24,559 bases of DNA from an uncultured Flammeovirgaceae bacterium. GTDB taxonomy: Bacteria > Bacteroidota > Bacteroidia > Cytophagales > Cyclobacteriaceae. Made by a program: the position numbers and the translations under genes. Below the pieces are notes generated by a model, which worked only from the letters and a program-made list of their open reading frames with translations, was not told the origin of the DNA and did not search any database. Location: positions 1 through 24,559 of the forward strand of contig CAKZPJ010000035.1 in NCBI GenBank assembly GCA_937138955.1, written 5' to 3'. Within the stretch, counting starts at the first letter, position 1; every line of letters starts with the position of its first letter. Below, in pieces: positions 1,081 to 9,535 of this stretch.

Positions 1081-2955
1081 TCAATTAACGGTAAAATCTC
1101 CGCGTAGATTTCGGAAGCGTTTGCGGACATCAGCCACGTAAATACTGCCGGGATATTCTTTAAGAAACTGGGTGTACAGTTCCATCGCTTTCTCAGTATC
1201 GTTCAATTGTTCTTCATAAATACGCCCGGTCATGAAAAGTGCATCATCACCTAAAATATCGTGATTGTACGATTCGATTATCTTTTCCAATCGACTCAAT
1301 GATTTGTCAAAATTGCCTAGCTGCAACTGTACCTTAGCGACCAACCAGTGTATTTCATCTTCTAGTGGATGGCTCTGGTAAGTACTTAGCATACTGTCTA
1401 GCTTACTCAGTGCCTCTTGCTGTCTATTTTGAAATAAAAGAAGCTCAGCATCAGCGTAAGCCTGCATCGCCGCACCTGAGGTATCTAAGACAGTATTATT
1501 CTGAATTAGTAAACTGAGCGACATGGCATCATTGGCAATTTCGCGCGTGGTTGCTTCTTTCAATACATCCAAATGATCCTGGGCTAGCTGAAAATCCCCT
1601 TTATAGTACGACAATTTGGCATTACGCAATTTGGCTTCGTATCCCACTGGCTCTTCCTTATGCGCCTTTTCTACTTGAGAGTAGAGTAGGGTAGATTCCC
1701 AAGATTGATTCATGAGTACGTAGATATCACCCATATCCAGCTTGCTTTGCGCTTTAATTTCCCGACTCGCCTTAGAATTACCGGTTACTTCCTGAAGAAT
1801 GGCTATAGCTCGGTCTTTTTCGTCCATGTAGAAAGCGTAAAGCAGTGCTTGACTTCGCATCGCTTCCAGTGTAGCAGCACTAGGGCCAATGGGGGAACCT
1901 TTGCTCTCATCGATGAAATTCTGATAATCTTGAATAAGGCGGATAATCTCTTCCTGCTGCACCGGAAACTGATTTTTCACCAACTCTTCCCGGGCTTTAA
2001 TTTTGTACCGACGAGCTGAAACATAATTGGAAGTACGCGGATGACGTTCTATCACATGATCGTACATTTTAAGCGCATTATCGTAATCCTGATTTTCCAA
2101 AGCAATCTGAGCTACCTTCATTACTTCGTCGCCATCGGTGCGCTGCCGGCGGTCTACCGCTCGGGCTTGCATAAACGCCCCGTAAAAGTTTTTCTGTTGT
2201 AGGTTGATCCAGATGAGCAACTCACTGTACAACGGATTGTCAGCGTCCTTCTGAATGCGATCTAGCAGCAAGTTTGCCATGCTATCCAGATCTTCATCCT
2301 CGGTCAGAATGTTTTGCAGCACATTTTTCACGTAGCTAACTCGCGAAGGATCTTCGTTGGCGTAGCTGAGGTACTCTAGTACCATCTGATCCACTTTATT
2401 TAATCGGCGGTATACGTTGGCTAATTCCAGCGCGTAAAGGCTAGGGTCGCCACTGGCTTGCCTTCCAGCCATGTATATACTTACCGCTCGTTCTATCAAC
2501 TCATGTCTGATGAGATGACTCGCAACAATTCTCACTTTGTAAATATCTGATTGGGCGTCTTCAAATACTTGCATAAAATATTTTTCAGCTTCAGCATCTT
2601 CTCCCTGCCGTAAATGCACAACGCCAGCATCAAGCTGGTACAAAATATTGGTGGGATAGTGGCGAAGTGCTTTGGTGAGATATTTTTCAGCTTCTTCCAG
2701 GTATCCGTTATTTATCAACAGCCGGAAGTATCGGTCATGGATGATGGGGATGTTTTTCTTTTTTCCGACCAGCTCATCGTAGAGCGTTTTTGCTTTTTCA
2801 ATTTCACCCTTGTCATCGTATTGCTGGGCTAACTCTATTTGCTGCGTATTCTGCCCTAAAACAAGCATGTTAGTGCTTGTTAGTAAAATAATAACCCAGG
2901 TTATGGTACGAATCATTCTTTGCGGTTTAATGGTGGATAACTTATGAACTAACAT
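1081..2955 (-). CDS. Secreted/periplasmic tetratricopeptide repeat protein
   Basis: This 624-residue protein has an N-terminal hydrophobic segment (about residues 18-34, VIILLTSTNMLVLGQ) that looks like a signal peptide. The internal methionine at residue 14 would give a more usual leader, so the start is uncertain. The mature part is almost wholly helical TPR-type repeats. Examples are AKTLYDELVG, AEKYLTKALRHYPTN, AEKYFMQVFEDA and, near the C-terminus, DTEKAMELYTQFLKEYPGS, which is like the repeats of BamD/YbgF-type periplasmic scaffolds. No catalytic motif is seen, so the role is presumably protein-protein interaction in the envelope. It is transcribed away from the DnaA-box cluster and its first codons also carry a near-match to a DnaA box (2932-2940). 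The specific function is unknown. Confidence 0.85.
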   Translation of the reverse strand: MLVHKLSTIKPQRMIRTITWVIILLTSTNMLVLGQNTQQIELAQQYDDKGEIEKAKTLYDELVGKKKNIPIIHDRYFRLLINNGYLEEAEKYLTKALRHYPTNILYQLDAGVVHLRQGEDAEAEKYFMQVFEDAQSDIYKVRIVASHLIRHELIERAVSIYMAGRQASGDPSLYALELANVYRRLNKVDQMVLEYLSYANEDPSRVSYVKNVLQNILTEDEDLDSMANLLLDRIQKDADNPLYSELLIWINLQQKNFYGAFMQARAVDRRQRTDGDEVMKVAQIALENQDYDNALKMYDHVIERHPRTSNYVSARRYKIKAREELVKNQFPVQQEEIIRLIQDYQNFIDESKGSPIGPSAATLEAMRSQALLYAFYMDEKDRAIAILQEVTGNSKASREIKAQSKLDMGDIYVLMNQSWESTLLYSQVEKAHKEEPVGYEAKLRNAKLSYYKGDFQLAQDHLDVLKEATTREIANDAMSLSLLIQNNTVLDTSGAAMQAYADAELLLFQNRQQEALSKLDSMLSTYQSHPLEDEIHWLVAKVQLQLGNFDKSLSRLEKIIESYNHDILGDDALFMTGRIYEEQLNDTEKAMELYTQFLKEYPGSIYVADVRKRFRNLRGDFTVN

Positions 2956-2958
2956 ACT

Positions 2959-3005
2959 ACATTATTAATTAATTATTTTTCTTCGAAATTACTATTAATT
3001 ATTAC
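2959..3005. other. AT-rich stretch, candidate DNA unwinding element
   Basis: This run of about 47 bp is almost entirely A/T, with repeated ATTAATT units (for example ATTATTAATTAATTATTTTT), and lies directly beside the first DnaA boxes at 3016. It also lies immediately upstream of the TPR gene start at 2955, so it may double as that gene's promoter region. Confidence 0.45.
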
Positions 3006-3217
3006 GCTGTGAATTTGTGAATAACTCCTGAAAATTTGGTCAATTAGTGGGTGTTGTGAATAACTCCCATAATTATCTACAAATTACTAACATACTTATC
3101 CACAACTAATAAAATGATTAACAGATACTTACAAGCAATTTATTCATTTGTTAACTAATATGTGGATAACTCTAAGGATAATATTAAAAGTGCATAACAT
3201 TGTGTATAACTTACGTT

Positions 3218-3270
3218 GAGGAGTGAATAACCTATTGAAAATGTGGAATTAGCTGAGAGGAGTGAATAAC
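3218..3270. repeat. 14-bp direct repeat carrying one-mismatch DnaA boxes
   Basis: The 14-mer GAGGAGTGAATAAC occurs at 3218-3231 and again at 3257-3270, 39 bp apart. Each copy contains AGTGAATAA, one base off the DnaA consensus. The identical flanks suggest duplication of a binding module rather than chance. Confidence 0.7.
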
Positions 3271-3310
3271 AAGCTATTTATTAACAAGTTATTGTTAGTT
3301 TTTCCACAGG

Positions 3311-5380
3311 TTATTCACTCGATAATGTGGATAACTCCCCAACGACGATATTAAGATCGCTACGTTCCCAGTTAGCCCGCAGATCAATGATCTCTTCTTC
3401 GGTATAGAAGTAGATAGGTTCAGGTTCTTCTTGAGAAAGAATGCTACCCGCCTCCCATGTTCCATCTTCATCGGCGTCTATTAAAACTCGGATCTGATAT
3501 TTACCCGGTGACACCAGTTCAAAGGAAAAGTTTTGGGCATTTTTCACTTCTCGAACCAATTCAAATTGTTGATTGAGTAACTGGACAAAATAGCTGGAGT
3601 ACTCAGTGGTAATTGTGCCACTAATCGCTCCGTAGTCTTCGGGATTCTTAAATGAATATTTCTGAATGACTTGTTCACTACTATCATTTTCTACACTCAT
3701 GAAACTACCCGCACTAACGTAGAAATTGAATGAGCGTAAGTTATTCGTTATTTCTTCTCGCTCGAAAATCTTCGGTAAGAACTCTCTATTGATCTGAGTA
3801 GTATCTACGTAGTCGGTGAGCAAGTTGAGTCTAGCTTCTTCTTCCTCCAGCGATTGAATACTATCTAGCATCACTTGGTCTTGGCTTATTCGTTTAACAT
3901 CTACAAACTGTTGCAACCAGTCTAAACGATTTTCTGCCGTAGCGTCAGATTCGTTTTGTAAACTATCTAGGTAAAGAGTTTGCTGACGAACACGATCTTC
4001 GTACTCCAAACTATCGTTCAGTTTTCTATAGTAGATGACGCTATCTACCACTTGAGACTTTTCTACGGGAATACTTAATTTCACCTGATCGAAATGTTCA
4101 TTCCACTGAAGGGCTTGGCTATAATCAATAGGCAGATAGAATAATGTATCGTAACTCAGCAAAATACTATCAGTACTTACTTGAGCAATAGGTTTGGAAA
4201 ACGCAAAATCACCCGAGATTGTATCAGTAATTTCGTTGTCATCTGAGGTAAACAGCGTAGTAAATTCAGCGAGCTTCCTACGACTTTCGTTAAACTTTAA
4301 GTATAACAGAGTATCAGGTAGCAGTTGTTGCGCTGAGTCAGAAGCCGAAATAGTGATAGCCAAACTATCTTGCTTCAGTGTGTTGTAGATACGAACTACC
4401 TTTTGCTCATCCTGAAAATTACTAAAAAGCATAATACTAGTATCAGATAAATTAAATGCTACTGAATCATTCAAGAAGTTCTGAGTGGCTTGGTTTACTT
4501 CTTCGTTTAAAGAGAGTGAATAATTATCTAGCGACTTATTGAATTTTACCTCAAAATACTTCCCATTGGCTCGGGCACTTTGTAATTGAATTGGCCGTAT
4601 ATCTTGTCGCTGAACAAATAAGTCTATTGATTTACCCATTGCATAGGTTGAGTCAGCAATAGCAATAGAATCAGCCCGCACTGATTGGTTAATATCAGTT
4701 CCCAGATATATCGGTTCTGACTTAAATCCGAAAGGTTCGTTATTTGAGTCGATTTTCAGATTACTATTTTCATCAGCGTAGGCGTAAATATTGTACAAAC
4801 CTTCTCGGATATAGCGAATAATATAGTTGCCTTCTTCATCAGTTTTGGCTAAGTACATGGGGGAGCCAGTGAATGCATCTAGTGTATCATTAACATCATA
4901 GAGAGCAACTAGTATATCTTCCACTGGTTGTTGTGTCATTAGACTTCGGACGTTACCATTGATTCGAAAAGAATCAATTTCAGGCCCAGTGCTAAATGCC
5001 ACAATCAGATTCTCGGCCGGATTTTTTTCTGAAGCATCTTTAATTGCTTCTCGAAAATTAAAAGTGTAGGTAGTACTATCTCGTAGTTCTTCTTCAATTT
5101 CTAAGAAAAGCGTTCGCCGGTTTACATAGAAGCTGTACTCCTCAATAGGTGGAGTAATAATAAGTTCTTGTTTTAATTCGCGCCCTTCAATATATTCATT
5201 AAACTCTATCTCAATTTCATCTTCGTCAAAATTGATAGTCTCTAACTCTGGGTACATTCGTACTAGCTTAGGCGGAATTGAATCTTTGGGACCACCGGTA
5301 GGAGTGCCCTGACGAGCACATGATCCCGCCATTATTAGCAAGACCCAAAGTGCTAGTAGCCAGCTATATTGTTTTGTCAT
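3311..5380 (-). CDS. Ig-like (Big_5/SbsA-type) domain lipoprotein
   Basis: This 689-residue protein starts with ATG and a lipoprotein signal; the predicted lipidated cysteine is C21 (IMAGSC). It is followed by the segment GTPTGGPKDSIPPKLVRMYP, typical of a Bacteroidota lipoprotein family with an N-terminal Big_5 Ig-like domain (about residues 33-132, ending VAFSTGPE). A prealbumin- or carboxypeptidase-regulatory-like beta domain follows (about 137-225, with EGNYIIRYIREGLYNIYAYADEN). A second similar segment lies at the C-terminus (GAISGTITTEYSSYFVQLLN through PGKYQIRVLIDADEDGTWE). The middle is low-similarity and rich in Asp and Ser. It is likely anchored in the envelope; no enzymatic function is visible. 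Unusually, its last eight or so codons overlap the DnaA boxes of the putative origin (3311-3319, 3326-3334). Confidence 0.85.
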   Translation of the reverse strand: MTKQYSWLLALWVLLIMAGSCARQGTPTGGPKDSIPPKLVRMYPELETINFDEDEIEIEFNEYIEGRELKQELIITPPIEEYSFYVNRRTLFLEIEEELRDSTTYTFNFREAIKDASEKNPAENLIVAFSTGPEIDSFRINGNVRSLMTQQPVEDILVALYDVNDTLDAFTGSPMYLAKTDEEGNYIIRYIREGLYNIYAYADENSNLKIDSNNEPFGFKSEPIYLGTDINQSVRADSIAIADSTYAMGKSIDLFVQRQDIRPIQLQSARANGKYFEVKFNKSLDNYSLSLNEEVNQATQNFLNDSVAFNLSDTSIMLFSNFQDEQKVVRIYNTLKQDSLAITISASDSAQQLLPDTLLYLKFNESRRKLAEFTTLFTSDDNEITDTISGDFAFSKPIAQVSTDSILLSYDTLFYLPIDYSQALQWNEHFDQVKLSIPVEKSQVVDSVIYYRKLNDSLEYEDRVRQQTLYLDSLQNESDATAENRLDWLQQFVDVKRISQDQVMLDSIQSLEEEEARLNLLTDYVDTTQINREFLPKIFEREEITNNLRSFNFYVSAGSFMSVENDSSEQVIQKYSFKNPEDYGAISGTITTEYSSYFVQLLNQQFELVREVKNAQNFSFELVSPGKYQIRVLIDADEDGTWEAGSILSQEEPEPIYFYTEEEIIDLRANWERSDLNIVVGELSTLSSE

Positions 5381-5458
5381 ATTTCTGATAGTTCGGTATT
5401 TGAATCAGGTTTACACCTTTTTTTGAGGCCAAAAATTCAAAATATAGTTTCTGAATGA

Positions 5459-5506
5459 CTCAATTTTTTTTACGCCATAGCATAAGCTATGGCGGATGGG
5501 ATTGAG
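5459..5506. repeat. Strong hairpin, 9-bp perfect stem with outer repeat
   Basis: CGCCATAGC (5473-5481) pairs perfectly with GCTATGGCG (5486-5494) around a 4-base loop, and CTCAAT (5459-5464) pairs with ATTGAG (5501-5506) further out. A T8 tract precedes the stem on the + strand, so neither strand has the U-tract after the stem expected of an intrinsic terminator. It lies about 80 bp upstream of the lipoprotein ATG, in its leader or promoter region. It could be a dispersed palindromic element or a regulator site. Confidence 0.55.
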
Positions 5507-5671
5507 GAAATTCAGGGGCTAGAGATGAATTTGTAGGTCAAAGGCAAAATTTAAATATACTCTTACAATTAAACGCCTATTCGGAAAGTTTCTTTTGATT
5601 ATTTATATACAGCATGGTAGAAACGGTAAGTATATTTCTATAAGAACCACATCGGTGGGAAAGACAGTACA

Positions 5672-6103
5672 TTAATCTGGTTTGTAGTTTGTAACGCTTA
5701 TTGAAGAACCAACCAACTCTATCAAATAGTCGGTTCTATCACACTGTCCTTCTCGGTTAAACGACCACAAATATTCGTTAGTAATAATAGCATATATTAC
5801 ACCAGGGTCAAGTTGTTCACCACTGAGCGGGCTATCAAAACCTACTCTGTACCGTATGCGATTGGTCAGTTCTGAGTCACGAATGCGCTGCAAAAGCCGA
5901 ACCCAATTAGCAATTCGTTTTCCGTCTAGAGCGTATACCACAAACGCAAATTGTTCCATAAACCGATGCTCGTGAAACTCATCAGGTTCAGAAGAACGTA
6001 TTTGATAGGTATAGTCACCACTGTTTTTCTCATTATTCAGAAGCTCATAAGAGGCAAAGAACTGAGTTTCATTCAGGTTCCACCGAAAGTCTGATGGGCC
6101 TTC
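5672..6103 (-). pseudogene. Remnant of a hypothetical gene, lacking a start
   Basis: The only ATG in this frame (5959) gives 95 residues with no ribosome binding site. However, the frame stays open for 48 more codons upstream, to a TGA at 6104-6106, and that part has protein-like composition (FRWNLNETQFFASYELL, then SGDYTYQIRSSEPDEFHEH) with no ATG, GTG or TTG. The downstream part (FAFVVYALDGKRIANWVRLL, GVIYAIITNEYLWSFNREG) also looks coding. In another frame just upstream (about 6107-6230) a coding-like run ends ...YVRYKKEILPNIDPEKAHQ, suggesting a frameshift near 6100. I do not recognise the family. An intact small gene starting at 5959 is the alternative. Confidence 0.4.
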
Positions 6104-6611
6104 TCAGGGTCGATATTCGGCAAGATCTCTTTTTTGTAGCGTACATACGTTAAACGACCAGCGGTTTCGAAGCGGTTTGAGTAAAAGATAGCCCAAGATC
6201 CCGCTGAGCTATGGTATGGTAGTAGGTTGAGGAAAGGTATTAACGGATAGAAGAAGTGATATAGAAAGAAGATTGAAAAATTGTTACACAATAGCTTAGT
6301 AACGGTTATAAAATAAGTTATCGGTTTTATGGGAGGCAGTTTTGATCTCAGACTAGACAAAAAACGTAGGCGAAGCAACGCTTCGGCGAGGCTTTTTAAC
6401 GTAGTATGAGGTCAAAAATGACCGCATAAAATGACAAAATTATTCTTTGATCGTTACTTAGTAGAGAAATTTATCTAATGATTGGCGCACAATCAATCGT
6501 TTTTGCTGAAGATCCCCTCGTATCAAACAGTATTTCATAAGATTAAACCCTAGAGTGTTTTAACACATCAACTTCTAATTTAATGTTTTGGCCACTTTCA
6601 GTAGTCAGTTT
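6104..6611. other. Gene-poor stretch of decayed sequence
   Basis: On the - strand a 101-codon frame at 6073-6378 begins with low-complexity Leu/Phe-rich residues that do not look like a real protein; only its last 40 or so codons look coding-like and may belong to the broken gene at 5672-6103. A short palindrome (CGAAGC-AAC-GCTTCG) lies at 6371-6385. From 6400 to 6611 I see no coding frame, RNA gene or repeat. Confidence 0.4.
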
Positions 6612-6970
6612 TCAGTAGCAATTAACAATATTCGCGTCAACTTGTAGTCGAGTCGTATCAGGAATTTTATCAAAATTAATTAGTTCTTCAATATCCTGTA
6701 AGCTACCAAATACATCAAACTCTATATTGAACCTTCTTCTATCTTTGATCAATTTGACTTCGTAACTTGAGTTTTCTCTATCAGTTTCGTGGTAGAAACG
6801 TTTTCTTCGCGATTTTTTAACCTATAGCCATCCAAATATTGGCGGGCCGCTTCCGGCTTTTCTTTTAGCTCAATATGTTTTTCCCGCTCTTATTTCAAAA
6901 GTTCTTGGGCATCGCTCTGCATAAATGAGAATGACATCAATCCAACTATAGCAATTATACGATACAGCAT
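6612..6970 (-). pseudogene. Broken small secreted protein gene (PepSY-like family suspected)
   Basis: The - strand ATG at 6970, 7 bp after the mnmG stop, begins a signal peptide (MLYRIIAIVGLMSFSFMQS, then DAQ). An in-frame TAA interrupts it at 6890-6892, after 26 codons. Past it the same frame reads EREKHIELKEKPEAARQYLD. At an A6 run (6813-6818 on the + strand as T6) the coding frame shifts and continues as SRRKRFYHETDRENSSYEVK and RRRFNIEFDVFGSLQDIEEL, ending at a TGA (6612-6614). The beta-strand pattern (YEVKLIKD..RFNIEFDVFGSLQDIE) resembles small PepSY-like secreted proteins common in Bacteroidota. Two independent lesions make a pseudogene more likely than a sequencing slip, although the homopolymer lesion alone could be an error. 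It was probably co-transcribed with mnmG. Confidence 0.6.
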
Positions 6971-6977
6971 CACTCTT

Positions 6978-8843
6978 CTATTTTCCAAGGTAAATCATAA
7001 TAACGGATATATCCGCCGGTGAAACCCCGCTGATTCGGGACGCCTGACCGATGGTTTGCGGGCGAATTTTCCCCAACTTTTCTCGTGCCTCGGTTGATAA
7101 TGCTTTCACCGTTCCGTAGTCGAAGTCGCTCGGAATTCGGTAATCTTCTAGGCTTTCTACTCGTTCAGCATGTTGACGCTCTTTTTCTAAGTAGCTTTCG
7201 TATTTCGTTAGAATCTCAACTTGTTCTATAACTTCCTCATCTATTTGCTGAAAGTATTCCTTTATAGTAGGATCGAGATTCTCTAAGACTGCTACCGAAA
7301 TTTCCGGACGTTTTAATAGTTGGTGAATGCTCACCTTTTCTTTGATAGTAGCGGTAGAAATTTCATCTAGTCCTTCGTTTATCTCGTTAGGAGCTGCTTT
7401 GCGTTGTTTGATTTCCACCAACACTTCTCGAATACTATTTCTTTTATCAAAAACTATTTCCAATCGCGTATCGTCTATTAGCCCAAGTTGATGACCTTTT
7501 TCGGTAAGCCGCAGATCAGCATTATCTTGCCGTAATAGTAAGCGGAACTCGGCTCGGGAAGTGAACATTCGATAAGGCTCATCAGTACCTTTGTTAATTA
7601 AGTCATCTATTAGTACCCCAATGTATGCTTCTGATCTTCGCAGAGTGAATGCTTCTTTTTCCTTAACTTTTCGGTGAGCATTAATACCCGCCATCAAGCC
7701 CTGGCAAGCAGCCTCTTCGTAACCGGTGGTTCCGTTGATTTGTCCGGCAAAAAATAGATTCTCAATAACTTTGGTTTCCAAACTCAACGAGAGTTGAGTG
7801 GGCGGAAAGTAGTCGTATTCAATAGCGTAGCCCGGACGAAATAGTTTCGCTTTTTCAAAACCAGGTATGTGGCGAATAGCCTGGTGTTGGACTTCTTCAG
7901 GAAGTGAAGTAGAAAAACCATTAACGTACACCTCTACGGTATCCCAACCTTCCGGTTCCACAAAAATTTGATGACGGTCGCGCTCAGCAAAGCGGTTAAT
8001 TTTATCCTCAATAGAAGGACAATAACGGGGGCCTTGCCCTTGAATTCGTCCGTTGAACATGGGTGAGCGGTCAAATCCGTCCGCTAAAACTTCGTGTACG
8101 GTAGGATTAGTATACGTGATATGACAGCTCCGTTGATGAGCGAGCGGCTTAGTATCGGTGAAAGAAAACTTACTTGGTCTTTCATCACCGGGTTGCTCTT
8201 CCATTTTGTTGTAGTCTAGCGAACGTCCGTCTACCCTAGGTGGGGTTCCCGTTTTCATTCGTCCCGCTTCAAACCCTAAACTGATAAGCTGTTCAGTAAT
8301 TCCTTTGGAAGCTCGCTCCCCTGAACGCCCCCCTCCCATCTGCTTATCCCCAATATGAATTAAGCCATTCAGAAATGTGCCATTTGTCAGGATAACAGTT
8401 TTTGATTTGATCTCTAGCCCAATACTGGTCTTCACTCCTACCGCCTTCTCCCCTTCTACCAGAATTTCGTTTACCATTTCCTGTAGAAAATCGAGGTTCT
8501 GAATTTTCTCTAATTCCATCCGCCAAGCTTCAGTGAAACGTGCCCGATCATTTTGAGTTCGTGGACTCCACATTGCGGGCCCTTTAGAACGATTCAGCAT
8601 CCTAAATTGGATAGCTGAAACATCGGTGACGATTCCGGAAAGCCCGCCTAGTGCATCAATCTCACGGACTATTTGTCCTTTGGCTACTCCACCCATTGCC
8701 GGATTACAAGACATTTGACCCATTTTGGCCATATCCATCGTAATCAGCAAAGTCTTAGAGCCCATATTTGCCGCAGCGGCGGCCGCTTCGTTTCCAGCGT
8801 GCCCCGCCCCTACTACAATCACATCGTATTTTTCAAACAGCAT
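6978..8843 (-). CDS. mnmG: tRNA uridine-5-carboxymethylaminomethyl(34) synthesis enzyme MnmG (GidA)
   Basis: MnmG works with MnmE to place the carboxymethylaminomethyl group on U34 of certain tRNAs, using FAD and methylenetetrahydrofolate, in the cytoplasm. The 621-residue length matches the family. Seen: the N-terminal dinucleotide-binding motif VIVVGAGHAGNEAA (about residues 8-21), the conserved SCNPAMGGVAKGQIVREIDA (about 45-64), the FNGRIQGQGPRYCPSIEDK segment (catalytic Cys region), a FAGQINGTTGYEEAACQGL motif, and the C-terminal helical domain ending in ISGVSPADISVIMIYLGK. The ATG start at 8843 precedes the FAD motif directly. It lies downstream of ybeY in the same direction, separated by about 250 bp that hold a parS-like site. 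Proximity to the DnaA-box cluster fits the usual origin location of gidA. Confidence 0.97.
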   Translation of the reverse strand: MLFEKYDVIVVGAGHAGNEAAAAAANMGSKTLLITMDMAKMGQMSCNPAMGGVAKGQIVREIDALGGLSGIVTDVSAIQFRMLNRSKGPAMWSPRTQNDRARFTEAWRMELEKIQNLDFLQEMVNEILVEGEKAVGVKTSIGLEIKSKTVILTNGTFLNGLIHIGDKQMGGGRSGERASKGITEQLISLGFEAGRMKTGTPPRVDGRSLDYNKMEEQPGDERPSKFSFTDTKPLAHQRSCHITYTNPTVHEVLADGFDRSPMFNGRIQGQGPRYCPSIEDKINRFAERDRHQIFVEPEGWDTVEVYVNGFSTSLPEEVQHQAIRHIPGFEKAKLFRPGYAIEYDYFPPTQLSLSLETKVIENLFFAGQINGTTGYEEAACQGLMAGINAHRKVKEKEAFTLRRSEAYIGVLIDDLINKGTDEPYRMFTSRAEFRLLLRQDNADLRLTEKGHQLGLIDDTRLEIVFDKRNSIREVLVEIKQRKAAPNEINEGLDEISTATIKEKVSIHQLLKRPEISVAVLENLDPTIKEYFQQIDEEVIEQVEILTKYESYLEKERQHAERVESLEDYRIPSDFDYGTVKALSTEAREKLGKIRPQTIGQASRISGVSPADISVIMIYLGK

Positions 8844-9037: not shown

Positions 9038-9086
9038 GTGAAGCAATTAGTTAATGTTCCACGTGGAACGTAGTCGTGAAGCAATT
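9038..9086. repeat. 11-bp direct repeats flanking the parS-like site
   Basis: GTGAAGCAATT occurs at 9038-9048 and 9076-9086, in the same orientation on either side of the 16-bp parS-like palindrome. The repeat may reflect a duplication or a flanking recognition element. Confidence 0.55.
9055..9070. promoter_or_regulatory. parS: parS-like centromere site (ParB/Spo0J binding)
   Basis: TGTTCCACGTGGAACG matches the broadly conserved bacterial parS consensus TGTTNCACGTGNAACA at 15 of 16 positions, the only difference being the last base. The inner 14 bases (9056-9069) are a perfect palindrome around CACGTG. It sits in the non-coding gap between ybeY and mnmG, about 5.7 kb from the DnaA-box cluster. 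In many bacteria parS sites gather near oriC and load ParB for origin segregation and SMC recruitment. No parA or parB gene lies in this window. Confidence 0.85.
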
Positions 9087-9094
9087 GAGAAAAC

Positions 9095-9535
9095 TTAGGT
9101 AGAGTGAAAGTTTTGAAAGTAGATACTGATAAACTTACTTTCTAACAATCGCATTTCCAATTTCTCGGCATCGGTAGAATCGTTAAACTCCAGAAGATGG
9201 AGAACACCATGGATGGTCACTCTCAGAAGTTCGTTGAGAAAAGGGGTATTCATATGCTGAGCATTTTCTTTTACTCTATCAACGCTAATGAATATGTCAC
9301 TTTCGAGAGGCTGATCAGTTTGATCGCGATTATCAAAGGTGATTATATCAGTGTAATAATTGTGGGAGAGATACTGCTGATTGATGGTGAGCAGATATTC
9401 GTCAGAACAAAAAATGTAGTTAATTTCTTGAATGGTTCGATCGTAATGCTTCGCTACTTGAAGTAACCATTCCGGTACAAGAGGGAGAATAGAATGAGGG
9501 GAAAAGTCTGTATCTTCTACAAAAAAATGAACCAC
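9095..9535 (-). CDS. ybeY: Endoribonuclease YbeY, rRNA maturation factor
   Basis: YbeY is a zinc-dependent endoribonuclease involved in 16S rRNA 3'-end maturation and ribosome quality control. The 146-residue product shows the family pattern: EINYIFCSDEYLLTINQQYL (38-57), YTDIITFD (61-68), DIFISVDRVKENA (80-92) and the metal motif HGVLHL (109-114). The usual H-G-x-L-H-L-x-G-x-D-H reads HGVLHLLEFND here, so H109 and H113 are kept but the third histidine position is Asp119. I believe an Asp there is common in Bacteroidota YbeY proteins. The start is GTG at 9535, with an AAGGTGG-like sequence overlapping it. It follows the ATPase gene with a 1-base gap, so translation is probably coupled. Confidence 0.93.
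   Translation of the reverse strand: MVHFFVEDTDFSPHSILPLVPEWLLQVAKHYDRTIQEINYIFCSDEYLLTINQQYLSHNYYTDIITFDNRDQTDQPLESDIFISVDRVKENAQHMNTPFLNELLRVTIHGVLHLLEFNDSTDAEKLEMRLLESKFISIYFQNFHST

Follow-up and report, generated by a model that had tools for sequence, protein, structure and literature searches.

Positions 2917–3334 of the analysed contig very probably form the chromosomal replication origin (oriC) of an uncultured Flammeovirgaceae bacterium, as judged from sequence comparisons. The contig (C35) is analysed here at its full length of 24,559 nucleotides and is referred to as the window; the host assembly comprises 5.63 Mb in 879 contigs. The proposed oriC consists of a cluster of DnaA boxes and an unwinding element, placed between a putative lipoprotein gene and a TPR protein gene. 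A sequence-only reading of the window had proposed a candidate oriC here, and the proposal is supported by the boxes, the unwinding element, strand composition in related genomes, a parS site and a recurring gene block. The element type itself, a chromosomal oriC, is ordinary and of a known kind. The notable part is its neighbourhood, which is conserved across many genera of the order, with the initiator gene located elsewhere.

A dense cluster of DnaA boxes

We identified six perfect DnaA boxes (TTATNCACA) and seven boxes with one mismatch in a box scan of positions 2959–3334, where the sequence-only reading had counted six and ‘about six’. The perfect boxes lie at 3016–3024 (minus strand, nearest to the unwinding element) and 3055–3063 (minus), both TTATTCACA; at 3096–3104 (plus), 3161–3169 (minus) and 3326–3334 (minus), all TTATCCACA; and at 3201–3209 (minus, TTATACACA). 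One-mismatch boxes lie at 3073–3081 (plus, TTATCTACA), 3189–3197 (minus, TTATGCACT), 3278–3286 (plus, TTATTAACA) and 3300–3308 (plus, TTTTCCACA), and three further copies share the sequence TTATTCACT (3222–3230 and 3261–3269, both minus; 3311–3319, plus). An extra one-mismatch box starts at 2932, barely outside this segment.

The cluster is flanked on the box side by a gene for a putative lipoprotein with a Big_5 (Ig-like) domain (3311–5380, minus strand) and on the side of the unwinding element by the TPR gene (1081–2955, minus strand), whose true start may be internal, near 2916, given a signal-peptide-like sequence. These flanks had been named correctly in the earlier reading. Its placement of the cluster between the two genes needs amendment, since the boxes at 3311 and 3326 occupy the last codons of the lipoprotein ORF and the cluster is thus not wholly intergenic.

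Such a cluster is not expected by chance. The whole window contains 36 sites with at most one mismatch, compared with 24.4 ± 4.6 in shuffled sequences (0 of 100 shuffles reach 36). Among 20,000 first-order Markov segments of matched composition, 18,984 had no perfect box, 988 had one and 28 had two; three or more were never seen. Perfect boxes are not enriched genome-wide, as the host genome contains 120 against 126 for a reversed-pattern control. The genome-wide scan proposed in the earlier reading revealed no rival: no second place with more than two perfect boxes close together was found among 109 of the 120 boxes. These 109 combine 100 of all 120 matches with all 81 TTATYCACA sites (C or T at the variable place), which leaves out 11 A/G-type sites on late contigs.

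An adjacent putative unwinding element

The window is at its least stable in the A/T-rich DNA unwinding element (DUE) at 2950–3004. Ranked by nearest-neighbour energies, position 2950 opens the least stable 30 bp, 2955 the least stable 50 bp and 2926 the least stable 80 bp (first of 24,529, 24,509 and 24,479 positions, respectively), and these stretches adjoin the perfect box at 3016–3024. The 47-bp A/T stretch of the sequence-only reading exists, though it is not quite pure: the best 47 bp (2958–3004) contain five G/C. An 11-bp direct repeat (ACTAACATACT) occurs beside the DUE (2948–2958) and again at 3086–3096, where it abuts the perfect box at 3096; the copy on the DUE side lies inside a conserved block of an alignment of six sequences.

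The box nearest to the DUE is part of an element on the minus strand (2985–3024) that comprises the box TTATTCACA, a degenerate tandem box AATTCACA, the dinucleotide GC and A/T trinucleotides. By eye, its spacer is 10 nt long and its trinucleotides read 3'-CAT-TAT-TAA-5'. These trios probably lie on the strand opposite the box. In its arrangement of box, degenerate tandem box, spacer, central-A trinucleotides and A/T-rich DNA, the element resembles the basal unwinding system (BUS) of Bacillus subtilis and other bacteria as described in the available part of PMC8287927, where spacer lengths peak at 10–13 bp, a range that includes the 10 nt found here. The same part of that source asks for three or more 3'-NAN-5' trios no further than 16 bp from a DnaA box; the window has them, and this is a lax rule for A/T-rich DNA. 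Unlike those of the BUS in PMC8287927, the trios in the window do not read GAT, and for this reason we rejected them as canonical trios; they agree with the lax rule only. Six further DnaA homologues were assayed according to the available part of PMC8287927 (from Staphylococcus aureus, Listeria monocytogenes, Enterococcus faecalis, Helicobacter pylori, Synechococcus elongatus and Deinococcus radiodurans), none of them from Bacteroidota.

A scan of named genomes yielded 580 confirmed loci, of which the best 80 were analysed. We built a weight matrix for the BUS-like element from 35 of these best 80 of 580 loci and tested it on 33; the other 12, among them loci without a box cluster, were excluded beforehand. 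The window element scores 23.7 and the next best match in the window 5.1. All 33 test loci and 33 of 35 training loci have the best match of the whole locus no more than 600 bp beyond the 3' end of the lipoprotein gene, a test that was not blind because test loci were part of the output from which the initial consensus was derived by eye. Scores above 19.9, the maximum among 100 samples of 20 kb from far away, occur in 28 of the 33 test loci. The five others are L071, L081, L093, L113 and L135, two of which have their match on the other strand. A separate set of loci (L002–L030) exceeds 19.9 in 20 of 29 cases.

A parS-like site accompanies the proposed origin

We identified a parS-like site, TGTTCCACGTGGAACG, at 9055–9070, which has one mismatch to TGTTNCACGTGNAACA and lies between mnmG (gidA; 6978–8843, minus strand) and ybeY (9095–9535, minus strand). 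Both mnmG and a parS-like site had been placed within 6 kb of the cluster in the earlier reading, and both are located there. The site is the single match to TGTTYCACGTGRAAC in the host genome, 6 kb from the boxes. A scan of the window alone with up to three mismatches gives two matches, a number that chance can explain (shuffled sequences average 0.86, and 20 of 100 contain at least two), so the weight of the site comes from the whole-genome search and the searches in relatives.

A search of nine relatives with GTTYCACGTGRAAC located 15 sites, one to three in each of eight genomes, all about 3.5–5.5 kb from the end of the lipoprotein gene that faces the boxes; the ninth relative (G076) gave no exact match. 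Overall, parS matches number 133 in 1.6 Mb of origin-side DNA versus none in 2.76 Mb of other samples. The distance from parS to the lipoprotein stop codon is 3.5–6.0 kb in the best 80 of 580 named loci. An exact parS is absent from eight loci that carry mnmG (three Dyadobacter, two Larkinella, one Persicitalea, one Arcicella and one unassigned Cytophagales). The window thus has a parS palindrome near oriC, as in ParABS systems. An HTH_ParB match, marking a putative ParB gene, lies on contig C783 of the host genome. In none of eight genomes searched is parB at the locus: in the host it is on that other contig, and in the other seven it is about 0.5 Mb or more away.

dnaA lies far from the proposed origin

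The sequence-only reading had pointed out that the origin is not next to dnaA in the window, and dnaA was indeed not found among the window ORFs. The host dnaA is on contig C190, where the gene is cut by the contig start and the box-binding domain (PF08299) is complete. It is likewise distant in all 12 relatives searched: none has dnaA at the lipoprotein locus, from which it is separated by at least about 0.76 Mb or by a contig boundary. A circular distance between dnaA and the locus was computed for eight relatives and ranges from 0.86 to 3.31 Mb (G002 and G016, the main contigs of four-contig assemblies, were treated as circular). In the remaining relatives dnaA is about 0.76 Mb (G057) or about 3.4 Mb (G076) away, 3.0 Mb away as measured along the contig (G013), or on another contig (G028). 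Four loci (G013, G052, G057 and G076) were placed by lipoprotein match, and box inspection left these four out. At 92% (G002) and 88% (G015) of a half-chromosome from the locus, dnaA lies near the opposite pole. Location of dnaA beside oriC is common and not defining.

The numbering of some assemblies may follow dnaA. The dnaA match starts at base 409 of the main contig in G002 and at base 391 in G031 (contig C1 in both), so these contigs look as if they had been rotated to dnaA. The locus is about 3.3 Mb (G002) and 0.96 Mb (G031) from the contig start close to dnaA.

Strand composition changes sign at or close to the locus in relatives

Because the host genome is in 879 contigs, GC skew was sampled in seven relatives, at 20 places of 20 kb in each. 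A skew minimum elsewhere had been named in the earlier reading as evidence that would count against an origin; in the seven relatives sampled, the sign changes at the homologous place or close to it. Among 20 break points the locus ranks first in three genomes, with the expected sign before and after it in 10 of 10 and 10 of 10 samples (G039), 10 and 6 of 10 (G079), and 8 and 7 of 10 (G052). It is the second best of 20 in two others (8 and 9 of 10 in G033; 9 and 10 of 10 in G031), where the best break is one 5% step on. The number of permutations out of 20,000 that reach the observed statistic is 0 (G039), 0 (G079), 38 (G052), 2 (G033) and 1 (G031), counts that are not exact probabilities because neighbouring samples are not independent. 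The locus beats the break nearest to dnaA in all five genomes, with a narrow margin in G031 (0.063 versus 0.056).

In the remaining two relatives, skew becomes positive directly past the 20-kb sample containing the locus. In G015 it is negative in all 12 samples taken from 4.7 Mb round to 1.745–1.765 Mb, the sample with the locus, and positive in 7 of 8 from 1.765 to 4.2 Mb; two boxes of the locus lie at 1.7497 and 1.7499 Mb. The pattern in G002 is weaker: skew is negative in 5 of 5 samples between 0 and 1.6 Mb, near zero from 2.0 to 3.1 Mb, negative at 3.285–3.325 Mb and positive in 8 of 9 samples beyond.

The composition switch is thus present in relatives, resolved to between 20 kb and 5% of the chromosome, and it is not sharp close up. 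Skew in 1-kb steps across the window is mostly negative from the boxes towards parS, between about 3.3 and 19 kb, with no clean local switch. The 20-kb samples that hold the locus in G015 and G002, about three quarters of which lie on the parS side, are also negative. In all three cases the fine-scale switch sits some kilobases from the boxes towards parS. We favour coding bias, which may mask a local switch, since genes on the parS side are mostly on the minus strand; alternatively, initiation may take place some kilobases towards parS.

This displacement, together with the presence of many boxes far from dnaA, would fit a site that titrates or reactivates DnaA in the manner of datA or DARS, with initiation controlled elsewhere, perhaps nearby on the parS side. 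We consider such a site improbable: the broad skew break falls at the homologous place, a unique parS is close by, the least stable DNA adjoins the boxes, and no other cluster occurs among the boxes listed from the genome.

A recurring gene block

Matches to the lipoprotein occur in 77 of 79 genomes, including that of the window; across the class, 115 of 119 genomes have a member of its family, a count that covers the protein only. We cut 30 loci, one of them the window (L001), and counted boxes from 60 bp before to 600 bp after the lipoprotein stop codon. Each of the 30 contains five or more boxes with no more than one mismatch, including one or more perfect boxes. Three genomes of the same genus have all 13 window boxes at identical offsets from the stop codon, some boxes being perfect in one genome and carrying one mismatch in another. 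Some boxes and A/T blocks are invariant in the alignment of six sequences (window included), among them the perfect box at 3161–3169.

The best 80 of 580 named loci are mostly from Cytophagales (for example Cyclobacteriaceae, Fulvivirga, Marivirga, Algoriphagus and Dyadobacter). Most of them share the block ybeY-parS-mnmG-lipoprotein-boxes, with ybeY again beyond parS. An mnmG homologue is present in 71 of these best 80 of 580 loci, a parS match in 63 and a TPR homologue in 56, which in 54 cases begins no more than 800 bp past the stop codon of the lipoprotein gene. In 67 of the 80, no other 500-bp window of the locus has a box score as high as that found 3' of this gene. The 40 bp of lowest stability in the locus lie 3' of the lipoprotein gene in 59 of the 80 and elsewhere in 21. 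At least three perfect boxes occur in only 26 of the 80, so the array often consists of weaker boxes.

No top-scoring cluster follows the lipoprotein gene in 13 of these best 80 of 580 loci, ties included: four that bear the label Mariniphaga or Bacteroidales, three from Emticicia, two from unassigned Bacteroidota, one on a truncated contig, and one each from Pontibacter, Cytophagaceae and Algoriphagus. Among the few loci examined from outside the order, the cluster is absent in L141, L145, L149 and L150 (labelled Mariniphaga or Bacteroidales). The TPR gene of two Emticicia loci (L105 and L112) lies 1524 and 854 bp from the lipoprotein stop, and each has a high-scoring box cluster elsewhere in the locus, more than 460 bp from that stop. 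Pontibacter anaerobius (L132) retains mnmG and parS and has a single one-mismatch box after the lipoprotein gene; its origin may therefore have moved, or its boxes may differ. Pontibacter populi (L135) has a weak box cluster.

The interval between the lipoprotein gene and mnmG (5381–6977, minus strand) also varies. In the close relative G002 it contains frames of 193 and 216 amino acids (stop to stop), and the apparently corresponding frames of the window are shorter (69 and 143 amino acids), through gene decay or assembly error. An ORF within the second frame gave only a partial DUF2490 match.

The cluster lies immediately upstream of the TPR gene and could in principle be a DnaA-controlled promoter region for that gene instead of an origin. 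This is very improbable, as six of seven loci labelled Algoriphagus (among the best 80 of 580) keep the top-scoring cluster without a TPR homologue in the locus; a role solely in TPR regulation was set aside for this reason, and it would leave skew and parS unexplained. Equally improbable is an integrated plasmid or phage origin, or a chance cluster: the core-gene setting recurs in relatives, 10 of 27 window ORFs scanned have no match to plasmid replication families, and the simulations exclude chance.

Comparison with described origins

The Escherichia coli oriC contains DnaA boxes and a DUE and lies in the gidA/mnmG neighbourhood. The proposed oriC of the window is similar in its perfect and weak boxes, its DUE at one edge and the nearby mnmG. 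Unlike E. coli oriC, it is flanked by the Big_5 lipoprotein and TPR genes, mnmG is 3.6 kb away with the lipoprotein gene intervening, and a parS-like site lies past mnmG. The predicted oriC of Yersinia pestis, like that of E. coli, lies between gidA and mioC, according to the available part of PMC10225481. Boxes, a composition switch, indicator genes and trios are features that our analysis shares with DoriC and Ori-Finder, as far as the accessible text of PMC6323995 and PMC10225481 describes them.

Among the open-licence titles and abstract openings examined, none described an origin from Bacteroidetes, Cytophagales or Cytophaga hutchinsonii in such a gene context. A C. hutchinsonii oriC plasmid, carrying a functional oriC, was reportedly constructed by Xu and colleagues in 2012. 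The portions available of PMC13342612, PMC5891637, PMC5219744, PMC7111523 and PMC5771137 contain no description of this origin context.

Proposed function and implications

These features suggest how the proposed oriC would work. DnaA made from a distant gene would bind the array of strong and weak boxes (3016–3334), load from the DUE-proximal tandem box (minus strand, 3024–3008) onto the A/T trinucleotides and open the least stable DNA at about 2950–3004, where helicase would be loaded and two forks depart. The route through the tandem box and trinucleotides is, on balance, probable. ParB, bound at the lone parS site 6 kb from the boxes, would subsequently separate the new origins.

More broadly, we tentatively propose that much of Cytophagales keeps one syntenic origin-centromere block (ybeY-parS-mnmG-lipoprotein-oriC) with dnaA and parB elsewhere, and that the dosage of the initiator gene is uncoupled from origin firing or oppositely phased to it. 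If so, dnaA dosage relative to origin firing would act as a built-in timing device, and the block would be a better ‘position 1’ of the chromosome than dnaA. The analysis provides a sequence-level map of the origin for a lineage in which the position of dnaA misleads. Knowing the correct origin is important when growth rates are estimated from read depth and when replicating vectors are built, and the variable distance between dnaA and oriC opens gene-dosage ideas of initiation control to comparison.
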